Assembly: GCA_027023265.1 (NCBI GenBank)
Contig: JALVVV010000009.1
Location: 1 to 54,039, forward strand
DNA length: 54,039 bases
Direction of reading: 5' to 3'
From: DHVE2 group archaeon
GTDB taxonomy: Archaea; Thermoplasmatota; Thermoplasmata; Thermoplasmatales; Aciduliprofundaceae
In this document: in pieces, positions 10,972-28,011 of the stretch
How positions within the stretch are numbered: the stretch's first letter is position 1
How the letters are laid out: each line of letters begins with the position of its first letter
Notes under the pieces: generated by a model
The model's input: only the letters and a program-made list of their open reading frames with translations
The model's database searches: none
Told to the model about the DNA's origin: nothing
Program-made: the position numbers and the translations under genes

Positions 10972-12021
10972 ATGTATATAGAGAAAATGGACTGGAAAGT
11001 CATTAAAATCGCACTAAAAAAACCTTTTAGAATCGCGTTAGGCACAATAAGAGATTATGAAGGAGTGTTTATTCGCATATGCACTTCTTCCACCTGTGGA
11101 TACGGAGAAGCTTCTCCATCCCCTAAAATCACCGGGGATACCACGGGCTCCACTCTGGCAGCCCTTTCCACACTAAAACCCCTGCTCATAGGAGAAGACC
11201 CAAGAAACATCGGAAAAATCATGAGAAAAATAAATTCTCAGCTTATTGGAAATTCAACGGCCAAGGCTGCAATAGACATGGCTCTTTACGACCTCTTCGG
11301 AAAGCTTGCCAAAACACCGGTTAATAAGATGTTTGGAGGAATATCTGACAAAATTGAAACTTCACTAACCGTGGACATAGGTTCCATTGAAGATTCCCTG
11401 AAAAGCGCCACAACCCTTTTAGATGCAGGTGCAAAAGTACTGAAAGTTAAAATTGGATTAAATCCAGATAGAGACGTGGAGCTCATCAGAAAAATAAGGG
11501 AAATTAGCGATGTGAATCTAAGGGTTGATGCTAACCAGGGATACAACCTAAAAATGGCAGTAAAGGTACTAAATAAGATATCACGGTACGAAATACAGTT
11601 TGCCGAGCAACCCATTCCCGTGTCAAGCGACAGAGATTTTGAAATTTTAAGACAAATGGTAGAGATTCCAATCATGGCCGACGAATCAGTGCACAATAGC
11701 AGGGACGTTTTGAGGCTTGTGGACAAGGTTGACGCCATAAATATAAAGCTCATGAAAAGTGGGGGCATGCATGAAGCGTTGAAAATGGCAGCCATCGCCA
11801 GAGCAGCAGGGATGAAAATCATGGTTGGTTGTATGATAGAAACAAAATTAGGCATAGCTGCAGGAACGCACTTTGCCACAGGCATTGGTGCAGAGTATGC
11901 AGACTTGGACGGATACTGGGATTTAAATACAAATCCAGTAACGGGAATTATTTTTGAAGATGGATTCAACATGGTTCCAGAAAAAGATGGGCTGGGAGTG
12001 AAAGTTGACATAAACTTTTAA
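10972..12021 (+). CDS. Enolase-superfamily dipeptide epimerase-like enzyme (mandelate racemase/muconate lactonizing family)
   Basis: A 349-residue protein with an N-terminal capping domain and a modified TIM barrel. Catalytic and metal residues are visible: Lys158-x-Lys160 (KVKIGL), Asp186 (RVDANQG), Glu212 (FAEQPI), Asp237 (MADESVH) and Lys259 (INIKLMKSGG). The C-terminal DLDGYWDL matches the DLDG seen in L-Ala-D/L-Glu type dipeptide epimerases, so that subgroup is favoured; o-succinylbenzoate synthase is the main alternative. A TATA-like GATATATTAAT (about 10942) precedes the ATG by about 25 nt. The gene ends in a 4-nt convergent overlap with the next minus-strand gene. Confidence 0.82.
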   Translation: MYIEKMDWKVIKIALKKPFRIALGTIRDYEGVFIRICTSSTCGYGEASPSPKITGDTTGSTLAALSTLKPLLIGEDPRNIGKIMRKINSQLIGNSTAKAAIDMALYDLFGKLAKTPVNKMFGGISDKIETSLTVDIGSIEDSLKSATTLLDAGAKVLKVKIGLNPDRDVELIRKIREISDVNLRVDANQGYNLKMAVKVLNKISRYEIQFAEQPIPVSSDRDFEILRQMVEIPIMADESVHNSRDVLRLVDKVDAINIKLMKSGGMHEALKMAAIARAAGMKIMVGCMIETKLGIAAGTHFATGIGAEYADLDGYWDLNTNPVTGIIFEDGFNMVPEKDGLGVKVDINF

Positions 12022-12755
12022 CCTTTCTTTTTAACATGGTAAGAGTGGGGAATAAAAGGCGCAGTTCTTGCCTCGTACTGAAATATGTGAGGATATGCAT
12101 CATGCAAGTACCTAACGTACTTCACCCACTCGTAAGATAGAAGAAAATACAGTTTCTCAATGTCCCCCTTTATATCCTCGTAATCTTCTTCGGAAATGTT
12201 ATCAAAATTAATTATTCTTCTCAACTCCTCGGTAACATGAAGAACATTCCAGAGCAGGTCAGTAAATGTTTCATGCTCAAGAATCACGGGGTTATCCAGT
12301 ATGTTTATTATGAATTCCTTGTTTTCAATTAAGAATTTTCTCAATTCATACAGGTTCATATTCCTTACTTTAAGTTCGAATTTCCGGATTTTCATCTCAT
12401 CTTCCAGATTTTTAATATCATCCACGCTCATACTACCAAGATTCATAACCTCCCGAGCAAGCTCTTCTGGCTTGACATCGTATTTAGATAAGTACCTCAG
12501 AAGGTCTTTACCAACCTCTCCAAAAAAAGAGCCGATAACTATGTTTAATTTCTCCTGTCTTTCCTTCTTGGTTCTTCTGACCATAAGGCTGTTCAGTACT
12601 ATACTAACAAGGAGTACTGATATTGGCAAGAAACCAAGCTGAGCCAAAATGTATTTTTCAATAAAGCCAGTATCATGAAAAGTGAGATAGTTAACGGCAT
12701 AAAAGAAAATTGAAGATAACAGCAAAACTATGCTTATTTTCAATTCCCATTTCAT
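12018..12755 (-). CDS. Membrane protein with two N-terminal TM helices and a helical cytoplasmic domain, unknown
   Basis: A 245-residue protein. Two TM helices (about 6-24 and 36-56) are followed by RRTKKERQEK and a long alpha-helical domain rich in Leu, Glu and Lys, ending in a basic tail. Segments DVKPEELAREVMNLGSMS and NPVILEHETFTDLLWNVLHV look like folded helical bundles. No family was recognised. It starts only 3 nt after the HD phosphohydrolase stop, so the two are co-transcribed. A functional link to that enzyme is plausible but not shown by motif. Confidence 0.7.
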   Translation of the reverse strand: MKWELKISIVLLLSSIFFYAVNYLTFHDTGFIEKYILAQLGFLPISVLLVSIVLNSLMVRRTKKERQEKLNIVIGSFFGEVGKDLLRYLSKYDVKPEELAREVMNLGSMSVDDIKNLEDEMKIRKFELKVRNMNLYELRKFLIENKEFIINILDNPVILEHETFTDLLWNVLHVTEELRRIINFDNISEEDYEDIKGDIEKLYFLLSYEWVKYVRYLHDAYPHIFQYEARTAPFIPHSYHVKKKG

Positions 12756-12758
12756 TAA

Positions 12759-14069
12759 CTACACCTTGAGAGAGAGTATCCTATTCGCCTCCTTTCTAAC
12801 TTTATCCACGTATTCTTTCTTAGTTATGAGCATCATTGCCCAGTTTTGCACCCTTCTTAGCTGCAGCGCACGTGCCAGCGGGGAGTACTTGGAAAGCTCG
12901 TGAATCTCTTTCCCATCAATGATCTTAACATTGGTTTTATTAAGGCGCGGTTCAGAGAGGTGAGCTATGTTATCAGGTATATCAATAAGAACGTATCTTG
13001 AATCAACCCCTGCACCATCGGCTATTTCCTTCTCAACCCTTCTGCGCATCTTAAGGTCATTCATCTTCTTTAACTCATTTATGGTTTCCTCGTCATCTTT
13101 TACCTCATCAACACGAAGCACCATGGCTTTTTTGAATAGACGACGATACTTAAGCCTTAATGCAATCTCCCTCGGGTATCCCCCTTGATTCAACAGCACA
13201 GATAAAAGCTCGGAATCGTTATATTTGTATATTTCAAGCCAGTTATCCAACTCTACCTCCTCCACTGCCCTTGAAAGCATCAGTTCGCCAATCCTGTTAG
13301 TTTTGTGAAAATAAACCGATGAGTACATAAGCGCCCTTGCAACAAGCATACCTTCGAGGGCAGGTACTCCCTTTCTATCAATCATCAACTCCCCATTCTT
13401 TATTTTAAGAGTATTCAAAATTCTGTACACGTCAATCATGCCATGAGCAACACCTGTGTAGTGAGCATCACGTAGGAGATAATCTATCTGATCGGCATCG
13501 AGAGGCCCACTTATTATATTCACCATATAATTTTTATCTTCACCGAAGTACTGCTGCCCTTCATCTACATTCATTATATCCAGCCTTCTGAACTCCTTCC
13601 CGAGTATCATTCTGCAAACCAGGTCTATGTCTATACCATAATCATTTATTATTTCGTGAATCCTTTCACGGCCATCTATCTCCAGACCCTCCAGAATATC
13701 TAACTTACCCCTTATTATATTGGTTGTGATTTCCATATGGTCCATTCCTGTTTTCTCGTGAAGCAGATACTCAAGAGTGTGTGAAAAAGGGGAATGCCCC
13801 AAATCATGAAGCATACCTGCAACCTTCAATGTCTCAATTTCGAGACCGTCTAAATTCAAAGCCTCACCCATTTTACCAGCCATGTGACCCACGCCCAGAG
13901 AGTGCTCCAGCCGGCTATGGTTTGCACCTGGAAAAACAAGATATCCCAACCCCAACTGCTTGATACCGTTAAGTCTCTGCATTTCCGGTGTCTCCAGAAT
14001 ACGCAGAGTTGCACCCTCAAACTTGAAACTGCCATGAATGGCATCGTGGATTATTTTGTAGTTAGACAT
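12759..14069 (-). CDS. HD-superfamily phosphohydrolase (dNTPase-like, COG1078 type)
   Basis: A 436-residue protein of the HD phosphohydrolase family related to SAMHD1/dGTPases. The metal site is clear: His51 and His56 in NHSRLEHSLGVGHMAGKM, the His-Asp pair His88-Asp89 in LHDLGHSPFSH, and a later Asp in GPLDADQIDYLLRDAHYTG (about 194-212). Members hydrolyse deoxynucleoside triphosphates or related phosphates; the substrate here is not determined. An A/T-rich TATA (TTAAATAAAATTT, 14091-14103) centred about 27 nt upstream gives it its own leaderless promoter, separate from the OB-fold operon. The helical membrane protein gene follows by 3 nt. Confidence 0.88.
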   Translation of the reverse strand: MSNYKIIHDAIHGSFKFEGATLRILETPEMQRLNGIKQLGLGYLVFPGANHSRLEHSLGVGHMAGKMGEALNLDGLEIETLKVAGMLHDLGHSPFSHTLEYLLHEKTGMDHMEITTNIIRGKLDILEGLEIDGRERIHEIINDYGIDIDLVCRMILGKEFRRLDIMNVDEGQQYFGEDKNYMVNIISGPLDADQIDYLLRDAHYTGVAHGMIDVYRILNTLKIKNGELMIDRKGVPALEGMLVARALMYSSVYFHKTNRIGELMLSRAVEEVELDNWLEIYKYNDSELLSVLLNQGGYPREIALRLKYRRLFKKAMVLRVDEVKDDEETINELKKMNDLKMRRRVEKEIADGAGVDSRYVLIDIPDNIAHLSEPRLNKTNVKIIDGKEIHELSKYSPLARALQLRRVQNWAMMLITKKEYVDKVRKEANRILSLKV

Positions 14070-14108: not shown

Positions 14109-15236
14109 TTAAACATTCACCCCTCCAAGTTCTTCTAACTGCTCCTTTGTCATGGCTTCTTTATCTGTAAGCTCCCTGTATCCCTTCTTTTTCTCGTAAT
14201 ATGCCACCGCAAAATACGCCACCAGAATAGGGGGCAATATATAGTAGATTATGTAATTTAAGAGCGATACGACGTACCATTCTGCATAATTGACCTTTGA
14301 GGACAGCCCGAGCATTGTTGCCCAAGGCATCTCAAAATAATGCACCTTGCTCCACGCGTTCATGTTAAATATTATAAGAAGGATGTTAGAGTAATTTGTG
14401 AATATATTTGCAAGGGGACTCATGCTTCTTGTAACCTTGAACCCTGGCACGCGGCGAGTGGTAAATGGAGGAAACATGTTGCTGCCCATCAGGCCAAAAT
14501 GGTCAGTGAGAATATGTGACCAGTATCCGAGCATTATTATCCAGAAGGCAGTCCATCCAAGAGGCGTGAACCCATAAAGCATGAACCCAATGGGCGCAAG
14601 GAGTATACCCATAGTAATGCTATGTCCCCAGCGTCTGTGCCAAGGGATAAAGTCTGCCCTAACACTACCATCTTTTTCCGGGAAAAACGAAAAATCAGGA
14701 CCTGAAAGGATATCAACATGAGTTACCGCATCGTATCCGTAATTCAGCTTTGGCTTAAATGAAGCTTCGGCATGGGCCTTTTCTTTTGGCAGGTAGGTAG
14801 TTATATATGGCCTTTTCTCGAATCCGGAGATTATTGGACCGATATCACAAATTACCTTGTTATTCTCCGTGTCAAAATGCACGTTGTACTGCCTCCATTG
14901 ATCCGATGAAATCTTCACCGTGTGCAGCATCACATTCACCTCGCGATTCTCTTCACTGGCTTGATTTATCGCTCTTGCAAGAGTATTTGCAACTTTTTTA
15001 GGGTCAAGATTCCACTCGTCCATATCCACTTCGTAGTCATGCCTCTGGAGATACTTGGCAAACCTAAAATCGATGGTATCGGGGAGTATACCAAATATAC
15101 CGCCCAGAATCAGAATCAACGCTTTATTCTGAACAATGGCATCCGCTATTAAATTATGCCCATAGTACGCATTTGCAATCACCACCACGAACGTTGCAGT
15201 GGTTAAACCAGCCAGGAAATGTGCAAATCCCTTCAT
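14109..15236 (-). CDS. YdjM/PF04307-like membrane-bound metal-dependent hydrolase
   Basis: From the ATG at 15236 (preceded by GGTGAT, and 4 nt after the permease stop) the protein has 375 residues. It resembles the LexA-regulated YdjM-type membrane hydrolases: an N-terminal MKGFAHFLAGL with His, ILPDTIDFR after TM2, and WHRRWGHSITMG (about 222-233), equivalent to the family HR-x-x-THS motif, followed by YWSHILTDHFGLMG. A large soluble insert of about 150 residues sits between TM2 and the HRRWGHS motif, which is unusual. About five to six TM helices are predicted. It is the last gene of the OB-fold operon. Substrate and true activity are unknown. Confidence 0.75.
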   Translation of the reverse strand: MKGFAHFLAGLTTATFVVVIANAYYGHNLIADAIVQNKALILILGGIFGILPDTIDFRFAKYLQRHDYEVDMDEWNLDPKKVANTLARAINQASEENREVNVMLHTVKISSDQWRQYNVHFDTENNKVICDIGPIISGFEKRPYITTYLPKEKAHAEASFKPKLNYGYDAVTHVDILSGPDFSFFPEKDGSVRADFIPWHRRWGHSITMGILLAPIGFMLYGFTPLGWTAFWIIMLGYWSHILTDHFGLMGSNMFPPFTTRRVPGFKVTRSMSPLANIFTNYSNILLIIFNMNAWSKVHYFEMPWATMLGLSSKVNYAEWYVVSLLNYIIYYILPPILVAYFAVAYYEKKKGYRELTDKEAMTKEQLEELGGVNV

Positions 15237-15240
15237 TTTA

Positions 15241-16566
15241 TCACCACAGACCCAGTAATGGTGCAAGGGTTATTCCAGACATGTTCAACCATATTGGAAC
15301 CAGTATGACTGCTAAGCAATGTGACCTGCGGGAGTTGAACAGCACGGGCACGAGGCCAATTGCTGTGGCCACAGACATGATCAGTAGTCCAACCCACGAA
15401 GTCATTATGTAAACCAGCACTATCAACACACCAAGTACAACTATGTTTAGTGTTTTTGGATTTACCTTGGGAATGGTTTTCGCCAGGAATTTAGACGCGT
15501 ATATAACTATAAAGAAGGAAATTATGCCTGCAAGGGCAATCCCCGCATCAACCAGATAAAACTGCTGCACGGTCTCAGGAGTGAAAAACAGATTTATACC
15601 CATTGCAAGAGCGCCCCTACGAAGATGCAGGGTAGGAAGGAAGAACAATGCTATGGCACCAACGTAGTATACCACGCGAGAAGCACCCATGGATACAAGA
15701 AAACTTTTATCGCCCTGCTGCGCGAAGGCATGAGATGACATATAACCCCCTACACCAGCCGTAACTGCAGGAATGAACGCTGCAAAAAGACCACCTATGG
15801 AGCCAGCTACCGAACCATGGACAATATCTTTGGGTTTTGCATCTATGGACTTGGGTATATTCTGTTCAGGAATCTCATACTTGGAGATGAGATTAAGGAT
15901 TATGGAAGAGGTTGCAAACAGGCCAATGAGTGGAGCCATAAGACTCTGAAACGCGTGCCCTGCGGGTATTAGCGTCTTACTGAAAGTTATAACTCCAAGA
16001 AGACCCGCAAGGAAAAACGTCAGGTAACCAGCCAAGATTGTTTTCCATCCCTCTTTCAATCCGTGCAATGGGTTCTTGTGCCTTCCAAAATCCTTAGGAA
16101 ACTCTGAAAGAAGCATGAAAGCTATCACTGCACCAATTATCCAGTGCATATTTGCAAGGGCTATATTCCATATAACTCCCAAAACATTCATGAATATGGG
16201 AACGAATATTGTTATAGCCATAACACCAATAAGCGCGCCTGTCGCTATTAGAACCACTGCCTCGTGCCCTTTTCTCTCTTTGAGATACCTCTGGGAAGGC
16301 ATCAAAACGAACATAGTTGAATCATCAGGAGCACTGAAATATATTGAAGGAATTGTAAAAACAAATGCATAGCTGACCAGCATTCCTATTAACATCAGCA
16401 CCATCAACATCGGGTCCATGCCCAGGCCACCCATGGTGAAGTAAAAGAGAAGAAAGAAACCGATTACATTATAAACATGAAGGCCGGGAAGCATGGAAAG
16501 CAATGACCCGATAGCCGTTCCAAGAAGAACGAACAGTATGCACATTAGTAGGTAAGAAAGAATCAA
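15241..16566 (-). CDS. TctA-family (COG1784-like) integral membrane permease
   Basis: A 441-residue hydrophobic protein with about 11-12 predicted TM helices. It matches the archaeal branch of the tripartite tricarboxylate transporter large subunit: GTAIGSLLSMLPGLHVYNV near the N-terminus carries the family G-x4-PG(L/I) pattern. A second inverted-repeat-like Gly/Pro stretch lies at about 250-262 (HGSVAGSIGGLFAAFIPAV). No TctB or TctC partner is nearby, unlike bacterial systems. Instead it is embedded by 4-nt overlaps between OB-fold protein genes and the YdjM-type gene, which argues against simple citrate uptake. Transported substrate is unknown. Confidence 0.8.
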   Translation of the reverse strand: MILSYLLMCILFVLLGTAIGSLLSMLPGLHVYNVIGFFLLFYFTMGGLGMDPMLMVLMLIGMLVSYAFVFTIPSIYFSAPDDSTMFVLMPSQRYLKERKGHEAVVLIATGALIGVMAITIFVPIFMNVLGVIWNIALANMHWIIGAVIAFMLLSEFPKDFGRHKNPLHGLKEGWKTILAGYLTFFLAGLLGVITFSKTLIPAGHAFQSLMAPLIGLFATSSIILNLISKYEIPEQNIPKSIDAKPKDIVHGSVAGSIGGLFAAFIPAVTAGVGGYMSSHAFAQQGDKSFLVSMGASRVVYYVGAIALFFLPTLHLRRGALAMGINLFFTPETVQQFYLVDAGIALAGIISFFIVIYASKFLAKTIPKVNPKTLNIVVLGVLIVLVYIMTSWVGLLIMSVATAIGLVPVLFNSRRSHCLAVILVPIWLNMSGITLAPLLGLW

Positions 16567-17900
16567 GATACCACCTCCAAAGAGTCCTCGGTAAAAGCTC
16601 TAACCTTTATTTCCTCTCCACTTTTGTACTTAGTAACCATACCCATAACAACCACACTCTTTCCGTAATCAACATGCCCGTGCACATTTTCCTGGCTCTC
16701 AACATATACCGAATATGTCCTATTATCATTCCAAAGAGTTATCAGATATCCGGAATTCATAACACGGTAATCTGCCACGATTCCCCTTAATTTTACCAGA
16801 GAATATAAACTCATGTTTTCCCCTTCCCTGTAATCCTTTTTATGGATAATGCTGAACTGTGGATGCATAATTATCTCCCATTTTGGCTCTGCGATGAAAT
16901 CATTTTTTCTAGTTACTTTTATTTCCCAGGTGCCATTGTATCGCACAAATTTACCCTGAATTTCCACATTGTCTCCTACATTATAGTAGCTAACCCCGTA
17001 TTTTGAATAAACAGTGATATTTGTACTGTTCTCACACACCTTTATTACTCTGGATATTTCGTTTTTTGATATAATCCTTGCCCATAATACATGAACATTT
17101 GTTCCGTTATAACGTTCCGGATTATTAATTAAATCTTTAAGGTTAACAGTCAAGTATCCCGATGTGGGTTGCTTTGGTCGATACAGCTTAAGTGACCCAT
17201 ATATCTCTGCCACACCGGATCCGAGTGTTTTGATATTCACCACGTTAAGTGCAGTATATGCATGGGGAATCACCAGGTCAACGGAATCGTCAAGGGTAGA
17301 TATCATACCAAAACTGTACTCTCTAACACCAGTTATATTTCCATCTGTCGTTACAAGGGTACCATCCTTGAACGCCCATGGCGGTGCATCATTTAGCATC
17401 TTCACACTGATGTGTTTAAAACTGCCTTTTATCACGTGTAAAAATTCCACATTGTTAACAATTACAGACTTTCTGGAACCGTAAGAAAAAGTGCCTTCCA
17501 CATCCACAACATCACCAATACCCGGTATCTTGTGCTCCTTTACCACCCTATCAATCTGGTCACGGTATATCTTAACGCTAATCTCGCCTGTTCCGTCGCT
17601 TATCACAAAGCCTAACTGGGTTACTCCGTAATTGCTATCGTATACCGAGGGGTATTTTATAACGGTACCCCGCACATGTATGAAATTGTAATTATCATCT
17701 ATCGTCAAATCTTTTATTGGAGTTATTTGCACATCGCTTGATGTATACGCTAAAATAGCATAGGTAGGGAATACCATAATTAAAATCAAAGCCACAACAT
17801 AAATACTTTTAATCCTCACACGCTTTTTGACATTTGCCGTACAGTACGGACAAATCTCGGAATCATCGGGAATTTCCAAACCACAGCTTGGACATTTCAT
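16563..17900 (-). CDS. Zinc-ribbon, single-TM protein with about four extracytoplasmic OB-fold modules
   Basis: A 445-residue protein. The N-terminus is a zinc ribbon (CPSC...CPYC, residues 3-19), then one TM helix (about 34-52), then an extracytoplasmic region. That region holds about four OB-fold-like modules, at about 65-158, 165-252, 256-338 and 350-445. The diagnostic strand pattern is (V/I)xGxxxxYNGxWEIKV, as in VEIQGKFVRYNGTWEIKV (about 310-327). Many N-x-S/T sites support an outside location. It overlaps both neighbours by 4 nt (ATGA), so expression is tightly coupled. OB folds bind nucleic acids or oligosaccharides; the ligand here is not known. Confidence 0.75.
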   Translation of the reverse strand: MKCPSCGLEIPDDSEICPYCTANVKKRVRIKSIYVVALILIMVFPTYAILAYTSSDVQITPIKDLTIDDNYNFIHVRGTVIKYPSVYDSNYGVTQLGFVISDGTGEISVKIYRDQIDRVVKEHKIPGIGDVVDVEGTFSYGSRKSVIVNNVEFLHVIKGSFKHISVKMLNDAPPWAFKDGTLVTTDGNITGVREYSFGMISTLDDSVDLVIPHAYTALNVVNIKTLGSGVAEIYGSLKLYRPKQPTSGYLTVNLKDLINNPERYNGTNVHVLWARIISKNEISRVIKVCENSTNITVYSKYGVSYYNVGDNVEIQGKFVRYNGTWEIKVTRKNDFIAEPKWEIIMHPQFSIIHKKDYREGENMSLYSLVKLRGIVADYRVMNSGYLITLWNDNRTYSVYVESQENVHGHVDYGKSVVVMGMVTKYKSGEEIKVRAFTEDSLEVVS

Positions 17901-18706
17901 TTTACCACCTTGAAATCATCAATAGACGAGGGAACAATCTCCCACTCTCCAGACATACTACTTCCGTACCACTGCAAAGCGCCGAAGAGCTCCACCGTTT
18001 TACCCGAGTAATTCTCGGGGTCAAAACCGTAAAAATGCACGATGTAAGTGGGCACAAAAACGGGAATGGTGCCCGAACCGTCCGAAAACTTTAACAAGTA
18101 TGCTCCCGAAAATGTCTTCTTGGAGCCTATAATATGCCCCAATATCTCAACCCTCATATAATTTCCAGCAGGGTACTGAATGCGCTCAATAGATGTGATG
18201 TTCGTCTTTACGGCATCGGCTTTCTTTATAGTTATCTGAGCAGGGTCATTTATGATCATGTACCTGTTAGAGCCCCTAAAATACACTTCCCCTGTTATCA
18301 CCACAAACTCACCATACCCGGGTATCTTGTCCTTGTGCGCTAACCTTCCAGTTACAGGATTATAAGCATGAACTGCCATGGTCCCCGTGCCATCATCTAC
18401 GTTTATGTACAATGCCTGCGAGCCATCACTTTTAAGTACGAGAGAAGGCGCGGTAGTCACAACTCCCTTAATCATTATCGTTGCATAGTTGTATGTAGGA
18501 CCTATATCACCAATATGCACGTATTGGACAGGCGTGCTCTGTGCAAAAAGGAGAAGGAATATTATTCCAAACACCGCAAATGTTAAAGAACCGTACTTCG
18601 CGTAATAGTACGAAGTATGCTTGGGAATTTTTGTACCGCAATAGGGGCACACTTCTAATGAACCCACGTACCTTCCGCAATTAGGACAATACTTCTCCTC
18701 TTCCAT
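17897..18706 (-). CDS. Zinc-ribbon, single-TM protein with two extracytoplasmic OB-fold modules
   Basis: A 269-residue smaller relative of the downstream protein. A zinc ribbon (CPNC...CPYC, residues 7-22) is followed by a TM helix (about 37-55) and two OB-fold-like modules (about 68-158 and 168-268). The first contains YINVDDGTGTMAVHAY, and the last strands read LFGALQWYG and GEWEIVP. The start at 18706 has a GAGGTGGT ribosome-binding site, and its first 52 nt overlap the end of the large OB-repeat gene. The stop overlaps the next ATG by 4 nt. The ribbon is predicted to lie in the cytoplasm and the OB folds outside. Confidence 0.75.
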   Translation of the reverse strand: MEEEKYCPNCGRYVGSLEVCPYCGTKIPKHTSYYYAKYGSLTFAVFGIIFLLLFAQSTPVQYVHIGDIGPTYNYATIMIKGVVTTAPSLVLKSDGSQALYINVDDGTGTMAVHAYNPVTGRLAHKDKIPGYGEFVVITGEVYFRGSNRYMIINDPAQITIKKADAVKTNITSIERIQYPAGNYMRVEILGHIIGSKKTFSGAYLLKFSDGSGTIPVFVPTYIVHFYGFDPENYSGKTVELFGALQWYGSSMSGEWEIVPSSIDDFKVVK

Positions 18707-21700
18707 ATAGCAACCACCTCATTAAAGGCATCAAAATTATTCTTGTTGACAGAATCATCATCCTTTTTCACATTTGAGGACTTGGATTTTGTATCATTCC
18801 AGTCAATTATATCTTTCTGGTACCTTGGAAACACTTCGTATCCAGAAGTGTATGGAGACGTTGAATCGTACTGGCCAACAATACCCACAACTGAGATATT
18901 ATCCCCTTTGGAAATATTTGTGGTATTTATACCCCACGAATTCCTCACAAACACCACCATTGATGTGTTATCGTTATCCACGGTTATTTTCACAAAAGAT
19001 GTTCCGGTGTACACATTGCTAACAGTACCATTTATCCTGACCAGCGTTCCCTCTATCTTCTCCATGTATGTCCAATTGCTGAAATCTGCTCCTGTGACAT
19101 TTTTGGGAGATATGTTCTCACCATGCCCTATCACAGTTATGTACTCCAAACTGCTCACTTTTAGCTCTGTTTCTCCATTGTACTGGTCAATAGTACCCCT
19201 AACTTTAACCACATCCCCCTCCGAAAGATTTAATAGGGTGTAATTCAGATAACCGAAAACCTGTACTCCCCCTGTGGTGTTTTCTATGTAAAATTTCAGT
19301 ATATTTGTCCCGGAAGATGTAGTGTATGAATAGATATTTGAAGGTACAATAACCGTTCCGTTAACTATAACCTGCTCTCCAAGATGAACAAGAGTTCCGT
19401 TTTCGTCAACCTCATGAATATAGGTGAAATTCACATATTTCGCAGAGGAACTCAGCACGTTAATCCGATCGGGTGTGCCTGTCCGTAAAGTTATCTCGTA
19501 GCTACCATTGTGATATGTAACATTACCATATATTTCTATAACATCCCCCACACCAACAGTAGGAACAGATACGCCACTTTGAACATACACCGCAATATCA
19601 TTGGAGTTATCGGTACTGTTGGAAACCCAGAAAAGGTACGCCGCATGGACATTCACCACAGTTGCATTTGGAATGTGTACATTTGTATTGTTGTACATGG
19701 ACCCGTTGGTTAGCAACTCTTCAATTGAGACGTTCACATAACTCACAGACTCTACGTTTTCCACCTTATCATCAGTGTTGTTTCTCACCTCTAATTCCCA
19801 CTTCCCGTTATATTGAGTAACCATTGCCCAGATTTCAACCTTTGCGCCCGTGTAAACCGTTGCATTCAGATTACCACCCTTTTCTATGTAAACGGAAATG
19901 TCATTTGTGTTATTGGTACTGTTTGACACATAAAACAGCCACGATGAGTTATAAACATAAGTTACCACGGCAAGGGGTACGTGCACAAGGGTGTTGTTAT
20001 ATTCGCTGGTATTCTGCAAAAGGGTTTCAATTTGTACCGTTGTATAATTTACCGCTCCTGTAACATTGACCCGGTCATCAGTGGAGTTTCTTACCTTTAA
20101 TTCCCACGTACCGTTGTACTCGGTCACCATCGCCCATATCTCCGCGTCAAATCCCACCGTGGGTATTCCATTTACCTCGCCACCTTTCTCCACATAAACC
20201 ACTATGTCTTTATTCCCAGAGGAATTGCTAACCCAGAACTTCCATGTCCTGTAAACCTTAACAATTTTTGAGTACGAGATATGAACAAGGGTATTATTGT
20301 ATCTCTGTGGAGAATTCAATATGTCTGTTATATTCACATTCGTGTAATTCTGAGGCTTTGTTTTTACAAAATCATATGAGTTTGGTCTTATTTTGATTTC
20401 CCAATTACCACGATAATACGTGAAAATACCGTAAACGTCCGCGTGGTACCCAGAAATAATGTTGCTTATATTGGAGCCCGCAAAACCCACAACCGTTACC
20501 TCCGAGCCATTGAAGAACAGGCCGATTAACCAGAGCCCTGATGATGAATTGTGATAACTCCACGATATGATTCCCCACGAATGCACATTTGTTCCATTAT
20601 AATGGTTGGGATTTCCATCGAGTTCATTAACAGCAACATCCACATAAACAGGCTTGGTAAGAACAACAACTATGTCTGGAGTGCCACTTCGTATCTTTAG
20701 CTCCCAATTCCCCCTGTACTCAACAACCACACCCCTGAGTGATACTTTTGCACCCCTGAATACCATACCCTTCACATTTGCGCCTTTTTCAACATAAACC
20801 TTAATTGAATCCGTAGAGTTTTGCCCGTAACTAACGGTAAAGCTCCAAGATGATGACACAGAAGTAATCCAGGCTTCGGTAATGTTCACGGCGGTATTGT
20901 TAAAATCACCAGGTGAATCCAATACCGACTTGATAGTTGTCGCCTCATAATTTGAAGACACATATCGAGAATAATCAGCAGTGTTGTTCCTCACATAGAG
21001 TTCCATATACCCGTAGTTGTACTTTGAAGAATGATAGTACGTGAGAAATCCCCTCACAGTAAATATATCACCAACAGCAGGAGTGCCAGTATGGTTTGCA
21101 CCGTAGGAGACGTACACCGTGAAGTTCAGCATGGTGTAGCGGTAAGATGCAATTACATCCCTAACCTTGGAAGTTACCTCAATCAATGAATTGTTGTAAC
21201 TCATCCAGTTAGATTCATTTACACACGCATATGTGATTTTAGCTTTGTGAGATAAGACAATAACGTAATTATGGGTGCTGTTCTCAACCTTTATTTCAAG
21301 CTCGTTATTATACGCCGTAAAACGCCCGGCAACCTCAACCAAATCCCCGTAATCCATTTTACTGGGCTTCTTTCCACCAGGCTCAACATAAACTCGCAAC
21401 CCCCGGTACCCGGACTCGTTCACCATGTAAAAGCTGTAATTGTGGCCGTAAACGAAAACACCTCTCACAACAACTTCTCTCCCGATATACCTTGCAGGAT
21501 TCTTTATAAGTTCGTTAACGCTTGTCTTTTCGGATTTTTCCTCGTAGTAAGATATCTCTATCTTCTTCGTTGCTGAACTCTTGTCACCTGCATTATCGTA
21601 AACGGTTAGCTTTACAGTGTAGTTACCAACCTTCATATACGTGTGATTCACATATTTCCCCGCAGAAGTTGTACCATCTCCAAAGTCCCAGATATACATG

Positions 21701-21906
21701 GTTATATGACCATCTGCATCCGATGAATTTATGGCAGAGAATAAAATTGGCATATTTACAAATCCGTATGCCGGTGCGGATATCCTTGCAACGGGTTTTT
21801 CATTTGTATTTATATGTTCAATTGATGCGTAAACTATCACGGGAACCCCTATTGCGAGCACAAGAAGGCTCACAAGCAGCATGGCCTTGTATTTAGGAGC
21901 AAGCAT
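18655..21906 (-). CDS. Giant secreted PKD protein with nine tandem OB-fold-like modules
   Basis: The ATG at 21906 gives 1083 residues; the open frame extends upstream to a TTG at 21924, but a TATA box about 27 nt upstream favours 21906. An N-terminal signal/anchor (about 9-28) is followed by a PKD domain (about 37-120, with MYIWDFGDGT). Nine OB-fold-like modules of about 95-105 residues follow (about 127-218, 219-316, 319-417, 420-516, 520-616, 619-718, 720-818, 820-927, 939-1036). Each module starts with a helix and (Y/F)NNTxVH and ends with a Y(N/R)GxWELKVR strand. Modules 5 and 6 are most alike. The last ends VFPRYQKDI, as in OB domains of extracellular nucleases, but no nuclease domain is present. 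Sequons are abundant. Confidence 0.78.
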   Translation of the reverse strand: MLAPKYKAMLLVSLLVLAIGVPVIVYASIEHINTNEKPVARISAPAYGFVNMPILFSAINSSDADGHITMYIWDFGDGTTSAGKYVNHTYMKVGNYTVKLTVYDNAGDKSSATKKIEISYYEEKSEKTSVNELIKNPARYIGREVVVRGVFVYGHNYSFYMVNESGYRGLRVYVEPGGKKPSKMDYGDLVEVAGRFTAYNNELEIKVENSTHNYVIVLSHKAKITYACVNESNWMSYNNSLIEVTSKVRDVIASYRYTMLNFTVYVSYGANHTGTPAVGDIFTVRGFLTYYHSSKYNYGYMELYVRNNTADYSRYVSSNYEATTIKSVLDSPGDFNNTAVNITEAWITSVSSSWSFTVSYGQNSTDSIKVYVEKGANVKGMVFRGAKVSLRGVVVEYRGNWELKIRSGTPDIVVVLTKPVYVDVAVNELDGNPNHYNGTNVHSWGIISWSYHNSSSGLWLIGLFFNGSEVTVVGFAGSNISNIISGYHADVYGIFTYYRGNWEIKIRPNSYDFVKTKPQNYTNVNITDILNSPQRYNNTLVHISYSKIVKVYRTWKFWVSNSSGNKDIVVYVEKGGEVNGIPTVGFDAEIWAMVTEYNGTWELKVRNSTDDRVNVTGAVNYTTVQIETLLQNTSEYNNTLVHVPLAVVTYVYNSSWLFYVSNSTNNTNDISVYIEKGGNLNATVYTGAKVEIWAMVTQYNGKWELEVRNNTDDKVENVESVSYVNVSIEELLTNGSMYNNTNVHIPNATVVNVHAAYLFWVSNSTDNSNDIAVYVQSGVSVPTVGVGDVIEIYGNVTYHNGSYEITLRTGTPDRINVLSSSAKYVNFTYIHEVDENGTLVHLGEQVIVNGTVIVPSNIYSYTTSSGTNILKFYIENTTGGVQVFGYLNYTLLNLSEGDVVKVRGTIDQYNGETELKVSSLEYITVIGHGENISPKNVTGADFSNWTYMEKIEGTLVRINGTVSNVYTGTSFVKITVDNDNTSMVVFVRNSWGINTTNISKGDNISVVGIVGQYDSTSPYTSGYEVFPRYQKDIIDWNDTKSKSSNVKKDDDSVNKNNFDAFNEVVAIWKRRSIVLIAEGTWVH

Positions 21907-22904: not shown

Positions 22905-24164
22905 ATGAAAATCGCCATCGCGGGAGGCGGCCTGGCTGGCCTTGCCCTCGGACACCATCTCAAAGGAAGCAATATTGATTTCAAGATTCTTGAGCGTGAT
23001 TACAGGGTTGGTGGCCTTTTAAAGAGCGAAACTCATCAAGGGTACACATTCGACACCGGTGGCTCGCACATTATATTTTCCAGAGACAGCTCAACACTCA
23101 AGGAAATGGTGAATCTCGTGGGGAATGTGGTCATGCATCGCCGCAGAACCGTTATCCATTACCGCGGGAATTTCATAAAGTATCCATTTGAGAACGGCAT
23201 ATTCATGCTCTCCCCGCAGGAGAGATTTGAAATTCTTCTGGATTTTGTGAATAATATTGGAAAGGAAAAGAAGAAGCCAGAAAACCTGAAAGATTTTTTC
23301 GTGCAGCTGTTTGGAGAGAAGATTGTCGAGAAATATCTGGGACCGTACAACGAGAAAATATGGAAAAGAAGAATAGATGAAATTGCCATGGCATGGTCAG
23401 AAGACCGCCTCCCTAAGCCGCCGGTGGAAGACGTTCTTCGAGCGGCGGTGGGCATTGAGACCGAGGGCTATTTGCATCAGCTCCGGTTCTTTTACCCTCT
23501 CCATGGTGGGATAGAGAGCATCGCCAGAAGTCTCGGCGAAGAATTGAGAGAGAATGTAAAGGTAGGAAACGAGGTAAAGGGAATAAAGCCGGAAGATGAT
23601 GGAATCGTGGTAAACGGCGAATTTTACGATTATCTAATTTCTGCGATTCCCCTCCCCTCTCTATTGAAAATACTGGGTGGAGATCTGGAAAAATTATCAA
23701 AGGAATTGGATTACAACTCGGTGACCGTCGTGGGTCTTGGAGTTCGAGGCAATTTACCGGATTATCACTGGGCGTACATACCAGACAAGGATATCATTTT
23801 CCATCGTATCGCGTTTCTGAGCAATTACAGTCCCAACATGGCTCCAGAGAATAGAGGAAACATAATAGCAGAAATTTCCCACAAACCATGCGAAGAGCCA
23901 CGAGAAGTAATAGACAAAACAATTGAAGGCCTGGAAAAGATTGGAATTGGCGTAGAAGTGGAAACTGCCAAGAAATGGGTAAACCACTATGCTTACGTGG
24001 TGACCGATAAGAATTATTTCAAAATACTGCCCGAGATTCGCAAAATATTGAAGGAAATGAGAATCCTCACACTTGGCAGACACGGCAACTGGGAATACCT
24101 GAACATGGACGCTGTGTGGAAGAGAGCTAAAGAGATGAGCGAGGTCTTGAGGTCGATGCAATGA
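22905..24164 (+). CDS. FAD-dependent amine-oxidase-type oxidoreductase (UDP-galactopyranose mutase/protoporphyrinogen-oxidase-like)
   Basis: A 419-residue flavoprotein with the N-terminal dinucleotide-binding motif GGGLAGLALG (7-16) and ERDYRVGGLLKSE (about 35-47), then YTFDTGGSHIIF. These are typical of the amine oxidase/UDP-galactopyranose mutase group. The segment FVQLFGEKIVEKYLGPYNEK with KIWKRR is like sugar-nucleotide mutase relatives. The stop overlaps the start of a family-2 glycosyltransferase gene by 4 nt, which favours a role in surface glycan or lipid sugar chemistry over porphyrin synthesis. A TATA-like element near 22875 precedes the ATG. The exact reaction is not determined. 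Confidence 0.75.
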   Translation: MKIAIAGGGLAGLALGHHLKGSNIDFKILERDYRVGGLLKSETHQGYTFDTGGSHIIFSRDSSTLKEMVNLVGNVVMHRRRTVIHYRGNFIKYPFENGIFMLSPQERFEILLDFVNNIGKEKKKPENLKDFFVQLFGEKIVEKYLGPYNEKIWKRRIDEIAMAWSEDRLPKPPVEDVLRAAVGIETEGYLHQLRFFYPLHGGIESIARSLGEELRENVKVGNEVKGIKPEDDGIVVNGEFYDYLISAIPLPSLLKILGGDLEKLSKELDYNSVTVVGLGVRGNLPDYHWAYIPDKDIIFHRIAFLSNYSPNMAPENRGNIIAEISHKPCEEPREVIDKTIEGLEKIGIGVEVETAKKWVNHYAYVVTDKNYFKILPEIRKILKEMRILTLGRHGNWEYLNMDAVWKRAKEMSEVLRSMQ

Positions 24165-25120
24165 AAGCGCTCCTGGTAATACTTAACAAGGACAATGCAA
24201 AACCATTGGCTGAATGCCTTGAATCCATTTCAAAAATGGATGGCCTATGCGAAGAATTTGACGTTCTAATATTGGACGGGGCATCAAAGGATAATTCAAG
24301 GGAAATAGCTGAAAAATATGAGAAAGAATATCCGTGTATTAAATTCAAAGTGCAGGAGAGGCTGGGAGGCACGGGATTCGCAAGAAGGGAAGCTACCGAG
24401 TACGCATTGGAGCAGGGATACTGGGCCATAATTTGGGGCGACTCTGAAAACGTGTATCACAGGGAATATGCAACCAGAATTTTGAAGAAATTGGAGAAGA
24501 ACGACGCGGTTGGAGGCGTGCCCCTTGTCAGAGGAAATTTTTACGCGCATGCATTTGCGTGGTACCATGCACTGCACCTTGTTTTCCCAGGATTGTACAA
24601 AGTGCACATACCCGGAAACAACAAGGCGGAAAAAGTTGAGATATACGAGAAAGTGCAGTACCCAGAAACCCTTCGCTCTGAAGACTACGGATTTTCACTC
24701 CTGGCAAAGAAGAAGGGTGTAAAGTTCAAGCAGGATGTGGCAAAAGATGCTATTGTGGAAGTTTCACTTCCTGAAAATTTCAGGGAAGTGAAAGCATGGC
24801 AGAGAGCAAGAGCCAAAGGTGTAGCACAGGTTCTTAGGGACATAGGCGTGAAGCCCTGGGACAACCTGGCGTGGGGATTTGCATCTCTTTTTTTCCTGAT
24901 TTTTGCCCTTCTGATTCCTTTTTCGTACATTCCCTTGGCAATTTACACTGCTCTTTTCATATTGGCCGGATTTGGAATCTTTATAGTTTCAAAAAGATAT
25001 TTAAAAAACCCAAAAAACGCATACTTCTTTGCTCCGGTATTTGGGTTGCTTCTGTACTCCCTATACTCCCTCACAGCAGTTTTCATGTACTTAAAAACGA
25101 GCAAAAAACAAAGGAAATAG
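24161..25120 (+). CDS. Family-2 glycosyltransferase with C-terminal membrane anchors
   Basis: A 319-residue GT-A enzyme. The N-terminal catalytic part has LVILNKDNAKPLAECLESI (about 4-22), LDGASKDNSREIAEKY (about 45-60), the metal-binding WGDSENVY (about 90-97) and an EDYGFSLLAKKKG segment (about 173-185). Two or three TM helices lie at about 240-312. It probably transfers a nucleotide sugar to a membrane lipid or protein-bound glycan at the cytoplasmic face. The ATG overlaps the oxidoreductase stop (ATGA), so both work in one operon. Donor and acceptor are unknown. Confidence 0.85.
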   Translation: MKALLVILNKDNAKPLAECLESISKMDGLCEEFDVLILDGASKDNSREIAEKYEKEYPCIKFKVQERLGGTGFARREATEYALEQGYWAIIWGDSENVYHREYATRILKKLEKNDAVGGVPLVRGNFYAHAFAWYHALHLVFPGLYKVHIPGNNKAEKVEIYEKVQYPETLRSEDYGFSLLAKKKGVKFKQDVAKDAIVEVSLPENFREVKAWQRARAKGVAQVLRDIGVKPWDNLAWGFASLFFLIFALLIPFSYIPLAIYTALFILAGFGIFIVSKRYLKNPKNAYFFAPVFGLLLYSLYSLTAVFMYLKTSKKQRK

Positions 25121-27564: not shown

Positions 27565-28011
27565 ATGGACATGGCGATAAGAATGAAATGGGTAACAAGG
27601 GAACATGTGCACGTGGACCGCGTGGCATGTCCGTGGCTAATAAAAAGGTTCATTGACCCCGAAGCCGAGTTTATATTCGTGCCAAGGGACACCGACCCAA
27701 AGAGCATCGAAGAGGGCATACCTTTTGATATGGAAGGCGTCGAGCTGGGGCATCACAACGGAAACTGCTCTTTCGACGCCTTTGTTGAAAAATACGGCAT
27801 TGATGACCCGGCAATCAGGGAAATACAGAAGATAGTGCACGAGGCGGATACACATGTGGAAGAGCCTTCACCCCTCGCAATCTCACTGAAAATTCTCGCA
27901 AAAGGCTATCGCTTGGCGGCAAAGGACGATTACGAAACGCTGGAGAGAGAGTTCCCCCTCTACGATGCACTATATGCGTATTTCAAAAACGAGCTGGAAA
28001 AAGTGAAGTAA
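27565..28011 (+). CDS. ChrB C-terminal-domain protein (chromate-resistance-type), inside the Hsp70 operon
   Basis: A 148-residue protein matching the C-terminal domain of ChrB. It has [20 protein letters not shown] (about 12-31), then [28 protein letters not shown] (about 57-76) and a helix with IVHEADTH (about 92-99), which together supply conserved His, Cys and Asp residues. In bacteria this domain occurs in a chromate-responsive regulator; its biochemical role alone is unclear. It starts 25 nt after dnaK and ends 1 nt before the dnaJ ATG, so it is transcribed with the chaperones. A TATATATGG element near 27543 could add an internal promoter. An alternative start is the second ATG at 27571. 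Confidence 0.78.

Follow-up and report, generated by a model that had tools for sequence, protein, structure and literature searches.

A five-gene archaeal operon of OB-fold arrays, a TctA-family permease and a PF04307 protein: a candidate module for nucleic-acid uptake

Introduction

Competent archaea lack ComEC, and how DNA passes across their membrane is therefore an open question. The closest described system is a gene pair of Methanococcus maripaludis, where in-frame deletion of the gene for either the OB-fold protein MMJJ_13020 or the TctA-like protein MMJJ_13030 abolishes transformation, a defect that was complemented, and in Methanoculleus thermophilus deletion of the TctA homologue has the same effect (PMC10133366). 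Given that archaea are devoid of ComEC, the authors of this 2023 study proposed that DNA is transported by the TctA-like protein (PMC10133366). Here, we describe an operon of five minus-strand genes (A to E, positions 14109-21906), which code for three proteins with OB-fold modules, a permease of the TctA family and a membrane protein of the PF04307 (YdjM) family. The operon lies on a stretch of 54,039 nucleotides from a DHVE2 group archaeon of the phylum Thermoplasmatota (GenBank assembly GCA_027023265.1, contig JALVVV010000009.1, positions 1 to 54,039), hereafter termed the window.

Since the OB + TctA pair is essential for the natural transformation of M. maripaludis, DNA uptake is the best reading of the locus. 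We thus lean slightly towards the view that the five genes form a module for taking up nucleic acids, with DNA as the most likely substrate, and that this module would represent a specialised relative of the methanogen transformation pair. An earlier annotation of the window from its letters (the original prediction) had regarded the operon as the best candidate for an undescribed system. This no longer applies to the two-gene core, which was described genetically and has been known since 2023. As regards the elaborate form, in the open-licence literature searched, neither the combination of array, TctA and PF04307 protein nor its clade, its spread or its PF04307 partner was found.

The operon and its conservation in archaea

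Genes A to E start at 21906, 18706, 17900, 16566 and 15236, respectively, where the start of A is taken as the ATG at 21906 and that of E is supported by its orthologues. The junctions A/B, B/C and C/D are overlaps of 52, 4 and 4 nucleotides, and a gap of 4 nucleotides separates D from E. A check of the open reading frames thus places the original prediction right almost to the base, and its junction lengths and module counts agree with ours.

The gene order A-B-C-D-E is kept in the genus and family of the window wherever an array-type locus was found on a long enough contig, the single-contig genomes G011 and G013 included, and it recurs at approximately 30-50% identity in a genome from another family of the order (G018, locus L042). 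Within the window's family, conservation is highest for D (79-100%) and lowest for the OB proteins. In Thermococcus, a second locus codes, in the window's order, for a protein of approximately 990 amino acids with about ten OB modules, a TctA protein of 443 amino acids and a PF04307 protein that carries an extra OB module. The order array-TctA-PF04307 was observed in 24 of 24 Thermococcus loci (L266, L267, L279 and L302, i.e., 4/4, and 20/20 further loci), with the array split into two genes in three of them (L362, L364 and L373). Clustering of the same families in distant archaea, proposed earlier as a check, is therefore borne out by the joint occurrence of array, TctA and PF04307 protein in Thermoplasmatota and Thermococcus, and as the layout is conserved over such deep divergence, it is not due to chance.

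The simpler association of OB-fold and TctA genes reaches considerably further. Proteins with the TctA domain PF01970 occur in 171 of 245 Thermoplasmatota genomes, in 79 of 85 from the Thermococcus phylum group and, with D as the query, in 286 of 296 from the Archaeoglobus phylum group. In many Thermoplasmatota families, the gene immediately upstream of TctA codes for an OB-fold protein, and the two genes frequently overlap by a few to approximately 20 nucleotides; the same arrangement is seen in nearly all Thermococci pairs sampled. Small proteins with a single OB module precede TctA in Hydrothermarchaeota and some other lineages, while in 20 sampled loci of the Archaeoglobus phylum group no OB-fold gene was found directly beside TctA. 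Among 121 loci comprising 1.86 Mb, at most 2.6 kb separate 89 of 90 significant OB matches from a TctA gene. This count is descriptive, since TctA guided the choice of loci and the same loci served to train the profile, although an unlinked OB gene was equally free to score. Because the linkage is scattered over the rest of the TctA tree, the association is either old or was repeatedly gained and lost; taken together, the pairing is widespread and probably ancient.

Two cyanobacterial plasmids harbour an OB-fold gene directly before a TctA gene that resembles the archaeal core type: NZ_CP060823.1 of Cylindrospermopsis (L383:3225-7403), where a gene with a NERD nuclease domain follows the pair after 226 nucleotides, and NZ_CP112877.1 of Pseudanabaena (L384:2886-5380). 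Both plasmid-encoded TctA proteins retain most of the archaeal core signature, which suggests that the OB + TctA pair has been transferred between domains. A plasmid-borne origin of the system was considered and rejected, since the plasmid matches amount to these two cyanobacterial cases and include no archaeal one. In two further archaeal families (f25 and f31; L103-L106 and L120), which may belong to marine group II, proteins with four to six OB modules are paired with a longer TctA of approximately 500-580 amino acids, which hints that archaea of the ocean may take up DNA.

The OB-fold modules of genes A, B and C

Gene A (18655-21906, minus strand as all genes of the operon) codes for an extracytoplasmic array protein of 1083 amino acids, which combines an N-terminal membrane anchor or signal and one PKD domain with nine tandem OB-fold modules. 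The modules were delimited by the module profile at 18832-21519, corresponding to residues 136-1031 of the 1089-residue open frame, and the product contains 55 N-glycosylation sequons. Genes B (17897-18706, 269 amino acids) and C (16563-17900, 445 amino acids, directly upstream of the permease gene D) specify two and four OB modules, respectively. In both proteins, the modules are preceded by a zinc-ribbon-like N-terminus, where matches to Zn_Ribbon_1 stay just under the Pfam cut-off, and by a membrane helix; these N-termini add to the original prediction. Hydropathy indicates a single membrane helix near the N-terminus of each of A, B and C, and judged by these positions, the OB modules are most likely located outside the cell and the zinc ribbons inside.

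The Pfam OB-fold family PF01336 scores above its cut-off in A, B and C, and an iterated module profile yields 9 + 2 + 4 = 15 copies, in line with the earlier estimate of nine, two and about four; the second module of C is weak (i-Evalue 4.8) and not significant alone. An AlphaFold2 model of one module, computed from an alignment of 14 modules taken from the window alone, reached a mean predicted local distance difference test (pLDDT) score of 93.4 and a predicted template modelling score of 0.85. A Foldseek comparison with the PDB gave a best E-value of 0.0019, none below 0.001, and probabilities near 1 for the leading matches, which comprise YgiW, the OB domain of Methanosarcina MM0293, AsnRS, RPA, ExoVII, CusF and domains of HIN and CST. 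The named proteins among the 50 best PDB fold matches are known as OB-fold or OB-containing proteins. Among PDB sequences, the module profile has its best match in Pyrococcus RPA32 (E 0.003), and most of the next matches are likewise OB domains that bind nucleic acids. The predicted model and its fold matches thus indicate that the assignment as OB folds, on which the original prediction depended, is right.

The fold matches speak for the fold rather than for the ligand, since CusF, one of the proteins matched, binds metal. We consider the fifteen modules to be probably nucleic-acid-binding.

The permease D and its clade

Gene D (15241-16566) codes for a permease of 441 amino acids, which matches TctA (PF01970) over residues 10-418 with an E-value of 4.5e-47 and 161.1 bits (cut-off 28.9). 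The assignment to the TctA family stands as predicted, while the predicted 12 membrane segments are reduced to 11 by simple hydropathy. As had also been noted earlier, the usual partners are missing: Pfam detects no TctB or TctC domain in the operon or in neighbouring genes. The array-type TctA proteins form a single clade, with a support of 100 in the approximate likelihood ratio test (SH-aLRT; 91-row tree) and of 100/100 in a 52-row mixture-model tree, where the clade appears in 100% of bootstrap trees. They retain H30, P90, R317 and R414 of the core archaeal signature, nearly all residues of which are absent from the bacterial-type TctA of the survey (L268). Judging from these features, gene D is an archaeal-type TctA of a diverged branch.

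D might alternatively be a secondary transporter for carboxylates or similar small solutes, with the OB proteins binding the solute or a metal, as its membership in the Pfam TctA family, the metal-binding CusF among the fold matches and the carboxylate transport suggested in 2015 for the arCOG04469 family (PMC5898192) would allow. This explanation is quite unlikely in our view: besides the lack of TctB and TctC, the core archaeal TctA differs from the bacterial type at many invariant sites, a solute receptor needs far fewer than fifteen OB modules, and deletion of the homologues leads to a loss of transformation (PMC10133366).

The genome of the window contains a second TctA gene, which is of the core type and stands alone (G000:C53:3501-4736; L002, L054). 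It lies near a gene that reads as ThiI-like, and several of the small surrounding genes appear to be conserved in relatives (L043-L050). At another locus, in the genome G239, the array-type TctA gene overlaps at its end with an opposite-strand gene (L088:4790-8920) for a putative surface protein of 1376 amino acids, zinc-ribbon-containing and rich in repeats.

The PF04307 partner

Gene E (14109-15236) codes for a membrane protein of 375 amino acids, the sole PF04307 protein of its genome. With an E-value of 3.9e-10 and 39.9 bits (cut-off 29), the Pfam match upholds the family assignment made earlier, and a set of His and Asp residues (H16, D63, D66, H210, H215, H251 and D255 in 385-residue numbering) is invariant across both phyla. 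A profile of the E subfamily matches in eight of 245 Thermoplasmatota genomes, seven of which (G000, G002, G005, G011, G013, G237 and G239) are all those with a known array-type TctA in the sample, where typing covered part of the TctA proteins from the 245 genomes. Since the E gene and the array-type TctA gene lie on different contigs in G237 (C66 and C1) and G239 (C12 and C9), the tie between the two is more than one of neighbourhood. The genome G009 of the window's family has a core TctA only and no E. The eighth genome, the distant Thermoplasmatota member G072 (family f32), contains two TctA genes, and its E-subfamily protein is encoded at C136:22745-23812.

The HxxxD motif had raised the idea that E is a relative of S1/P1 nucleases, which was discarded after an hhalign comparison (E 0.7, probability 0.1%; a weak test, as the alignments are shallow). 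A search of the PDB with E gave no match, and a single-sequence AlphaFold model was unusable (pLDDT 42).

A dedicated, hydrolase-like partner of the array clade would also suit a nucleic-acid module with a purpose other than transformation, which either draws phosphate and carbon from DNA or RNA outside the cell or serves to export DNA. The gate for transformation would then be the core TctA on contig C53 and the array type a paralogue with another task, which agrees with the presence of two differently signed TctA types in one genome and with the finding that both TctA types have their own OB partner in Thermococci. We regard this possibility as rather unlikely, given that the operon lacks a secreted nuclease of a known family and that the conserved Thermococcus neighbourhood, judged from sequence, shows no obvious genes for nutrient uptake.

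A model for nucleic-acid uptake

If the operon indeed mediates DNA uptake, A, and with it B and C, would bind incoming DNA at the cell surface, to which the DNA is perhaps passed by type IV-like pili. D would then constitute the channel for DNA across the membrane, in place of ComEC, and E would act as a hydrolase at the membrane, whose substrate may be the strand that is not transported. The zinc ribbons of B and C, on the cytoplasmic side, may take over the DNA or provide a link to cytoplasmic partners. The ComEC domain PF03772 was found in none of 21 genomes (that of the window and 20 relatives), while ten bacterial controls were positive, and the window's genome codes for PF00482 proteins, consistent with a pilus or archaellum system.

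Several observations weigh against uptake of DNA. Outside the membrane, A has an isoelectric point of about 5.5 and is thus acidic on the whole, although it includes some basic modules, and an acidic array is not typical of DNA-binding surfaces. Array-type TctA is separate from the core archaeal TctA clade in trees that do not include MMJJ_13030. At near-invariant core sites, the array clade shows N32 replaced by Y or F, H66 by Y, H92 by Q, N297 by R and T298 by V; the main doubt is that, given these changed signature residues, the substrate or the direction of transport of D could differ from that of core TctA. Moreover, the stand-alone core TctA on C53 could serve transformation alone, DNA transport through TctA is a hypothesis even in methanogens, and no SNase homologue of the thermonuclease required in M. 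maripaludis was found in the window's genome.

A bolder version of the uptake model holds that the operon is a complete, ComEC-independent archaeal DNA translocator, in which the giant extracellular OB array captures DNA, TctA forms the channel and strand processing falls to the PF04307 protein as a hydrolase, and of which the small OB + TctA pair of euryarchaea and cyanobacterial plasmids is the minimal form. This we put forward tentatively, as a proposal that is doubtful rather than probable.

Neighbouring genes

Beside the cluster, a glycosyltransferase gene and a gene for a mutase-like oxidoreductase are located on the opposite strand (22905-25120). OB folds can bind oligosaccharides, and together with these neighbours, this would be compatible with an envelope polysaccharide or glycoprotein system, in which the OB proteins bind glycan, TctA moves it or a precursor and the PF04307 protein trims it. 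Neither gene lies near the locus in L033, L039, L040 and L041, and the Thermococcus loci yielded no relative of either; as the homologous pair, moreover, determines transformation (PMC10133366), we deem a glycan system very unlikely. The broader earlier proposal, a polymer captured outside the cell and moved or processed at the membrane, thus persists in its DNA uptake variant, to which the homologous transformation pair lends support, and not in its envelope glycan variant, for which the conserved neighbours give none.

A tRNA endonuclease gene lies upstream of gene A with a gap of 33 nucleotides and was observed beside A in the window's family only. On the other side of the operon, the region 12018-14069 comprises a small membrane protein gene and an HD-domain, dGTPase-like gene (PF19276/PF01966; 12759-14069). 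These two genes were rejected as members of the unit, as they follow the operon in only some genomes of the genus. Anti-phage defence was likewise dismissed as a function, PADLOC having given no match for the five proteins. Elsewhere in the window, a gene with a ChrB C-terminal domain (27565-28011) separates dnaK from dnaJ in a grpE-dnaK-dnaJ cluster; a copy with 88% identity occurs in a different gene setting in L044.

Implications

The OB + TctA system thus exists in a second, far more elaborate form, which is present in Thermococcus. Thermococcus kodakarensis is genetically tractable and naturally competent. As the array set occurs in this genus, the missing archaeal DNA gate becomes testable there. 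PF04307, a family of unproven activity, gains a candidate functional partner.

Comparison with known systems

The bacterial tricarboxylate transporter TctABC shares the TctA family PF01970 with the operon, which in contrast is devoid of TctB and TctC, and the bacterial-type TctA (L268) lacks the signature residues H30, N32, H66, P90 and R317. With the bacterial DNA channel ComEC, the locus has in common only the proposed role, i.e., the passage of DNA across the membrane, and no sequence relation to the window's proteins was found. In silico models assign DNA-binding and nuclease functions to domains of ComEC (PMC5031224). The extracellular nucleases ExeM and NucH are secreted, as are the OB proteins of the window, and a module of C matches the profile NF033681 weakly (17.5 bits, cut-off 300); the OB proteins, unlike these enzymes, contain no nuclease domain.

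The M. maripaludis pair MMJJ_13020/MMJJ_13030 and the operon are both euryarchaeal and consist of, or include, an OB-fold protein with a single membrane helix and a TctA-like permease of approximately 11 helices without TctB or TctC. In the window, C takes the position of the OB-fold protein directly upstream of the permease gene, overlapping D by 4 nucleotides. In contrast to the methanogen pair, the window harbours three OB proteins with 15 modules, a PKD domain, zinc ribbons and a PF04307 partner. Relative to core archaeal TctA, D belongs to a separate clade with altered signature residues. The Thermococcus locus (L266, L267, L279, L302 and L359-L378) differs from the window in that one long OB protein (two in L362, L364 and L373) stands in the place of three, and in the OB module inserted into its PF04307 protein, while it shares with the window the gene order, the TctA clade and the PF04307 subfamily.

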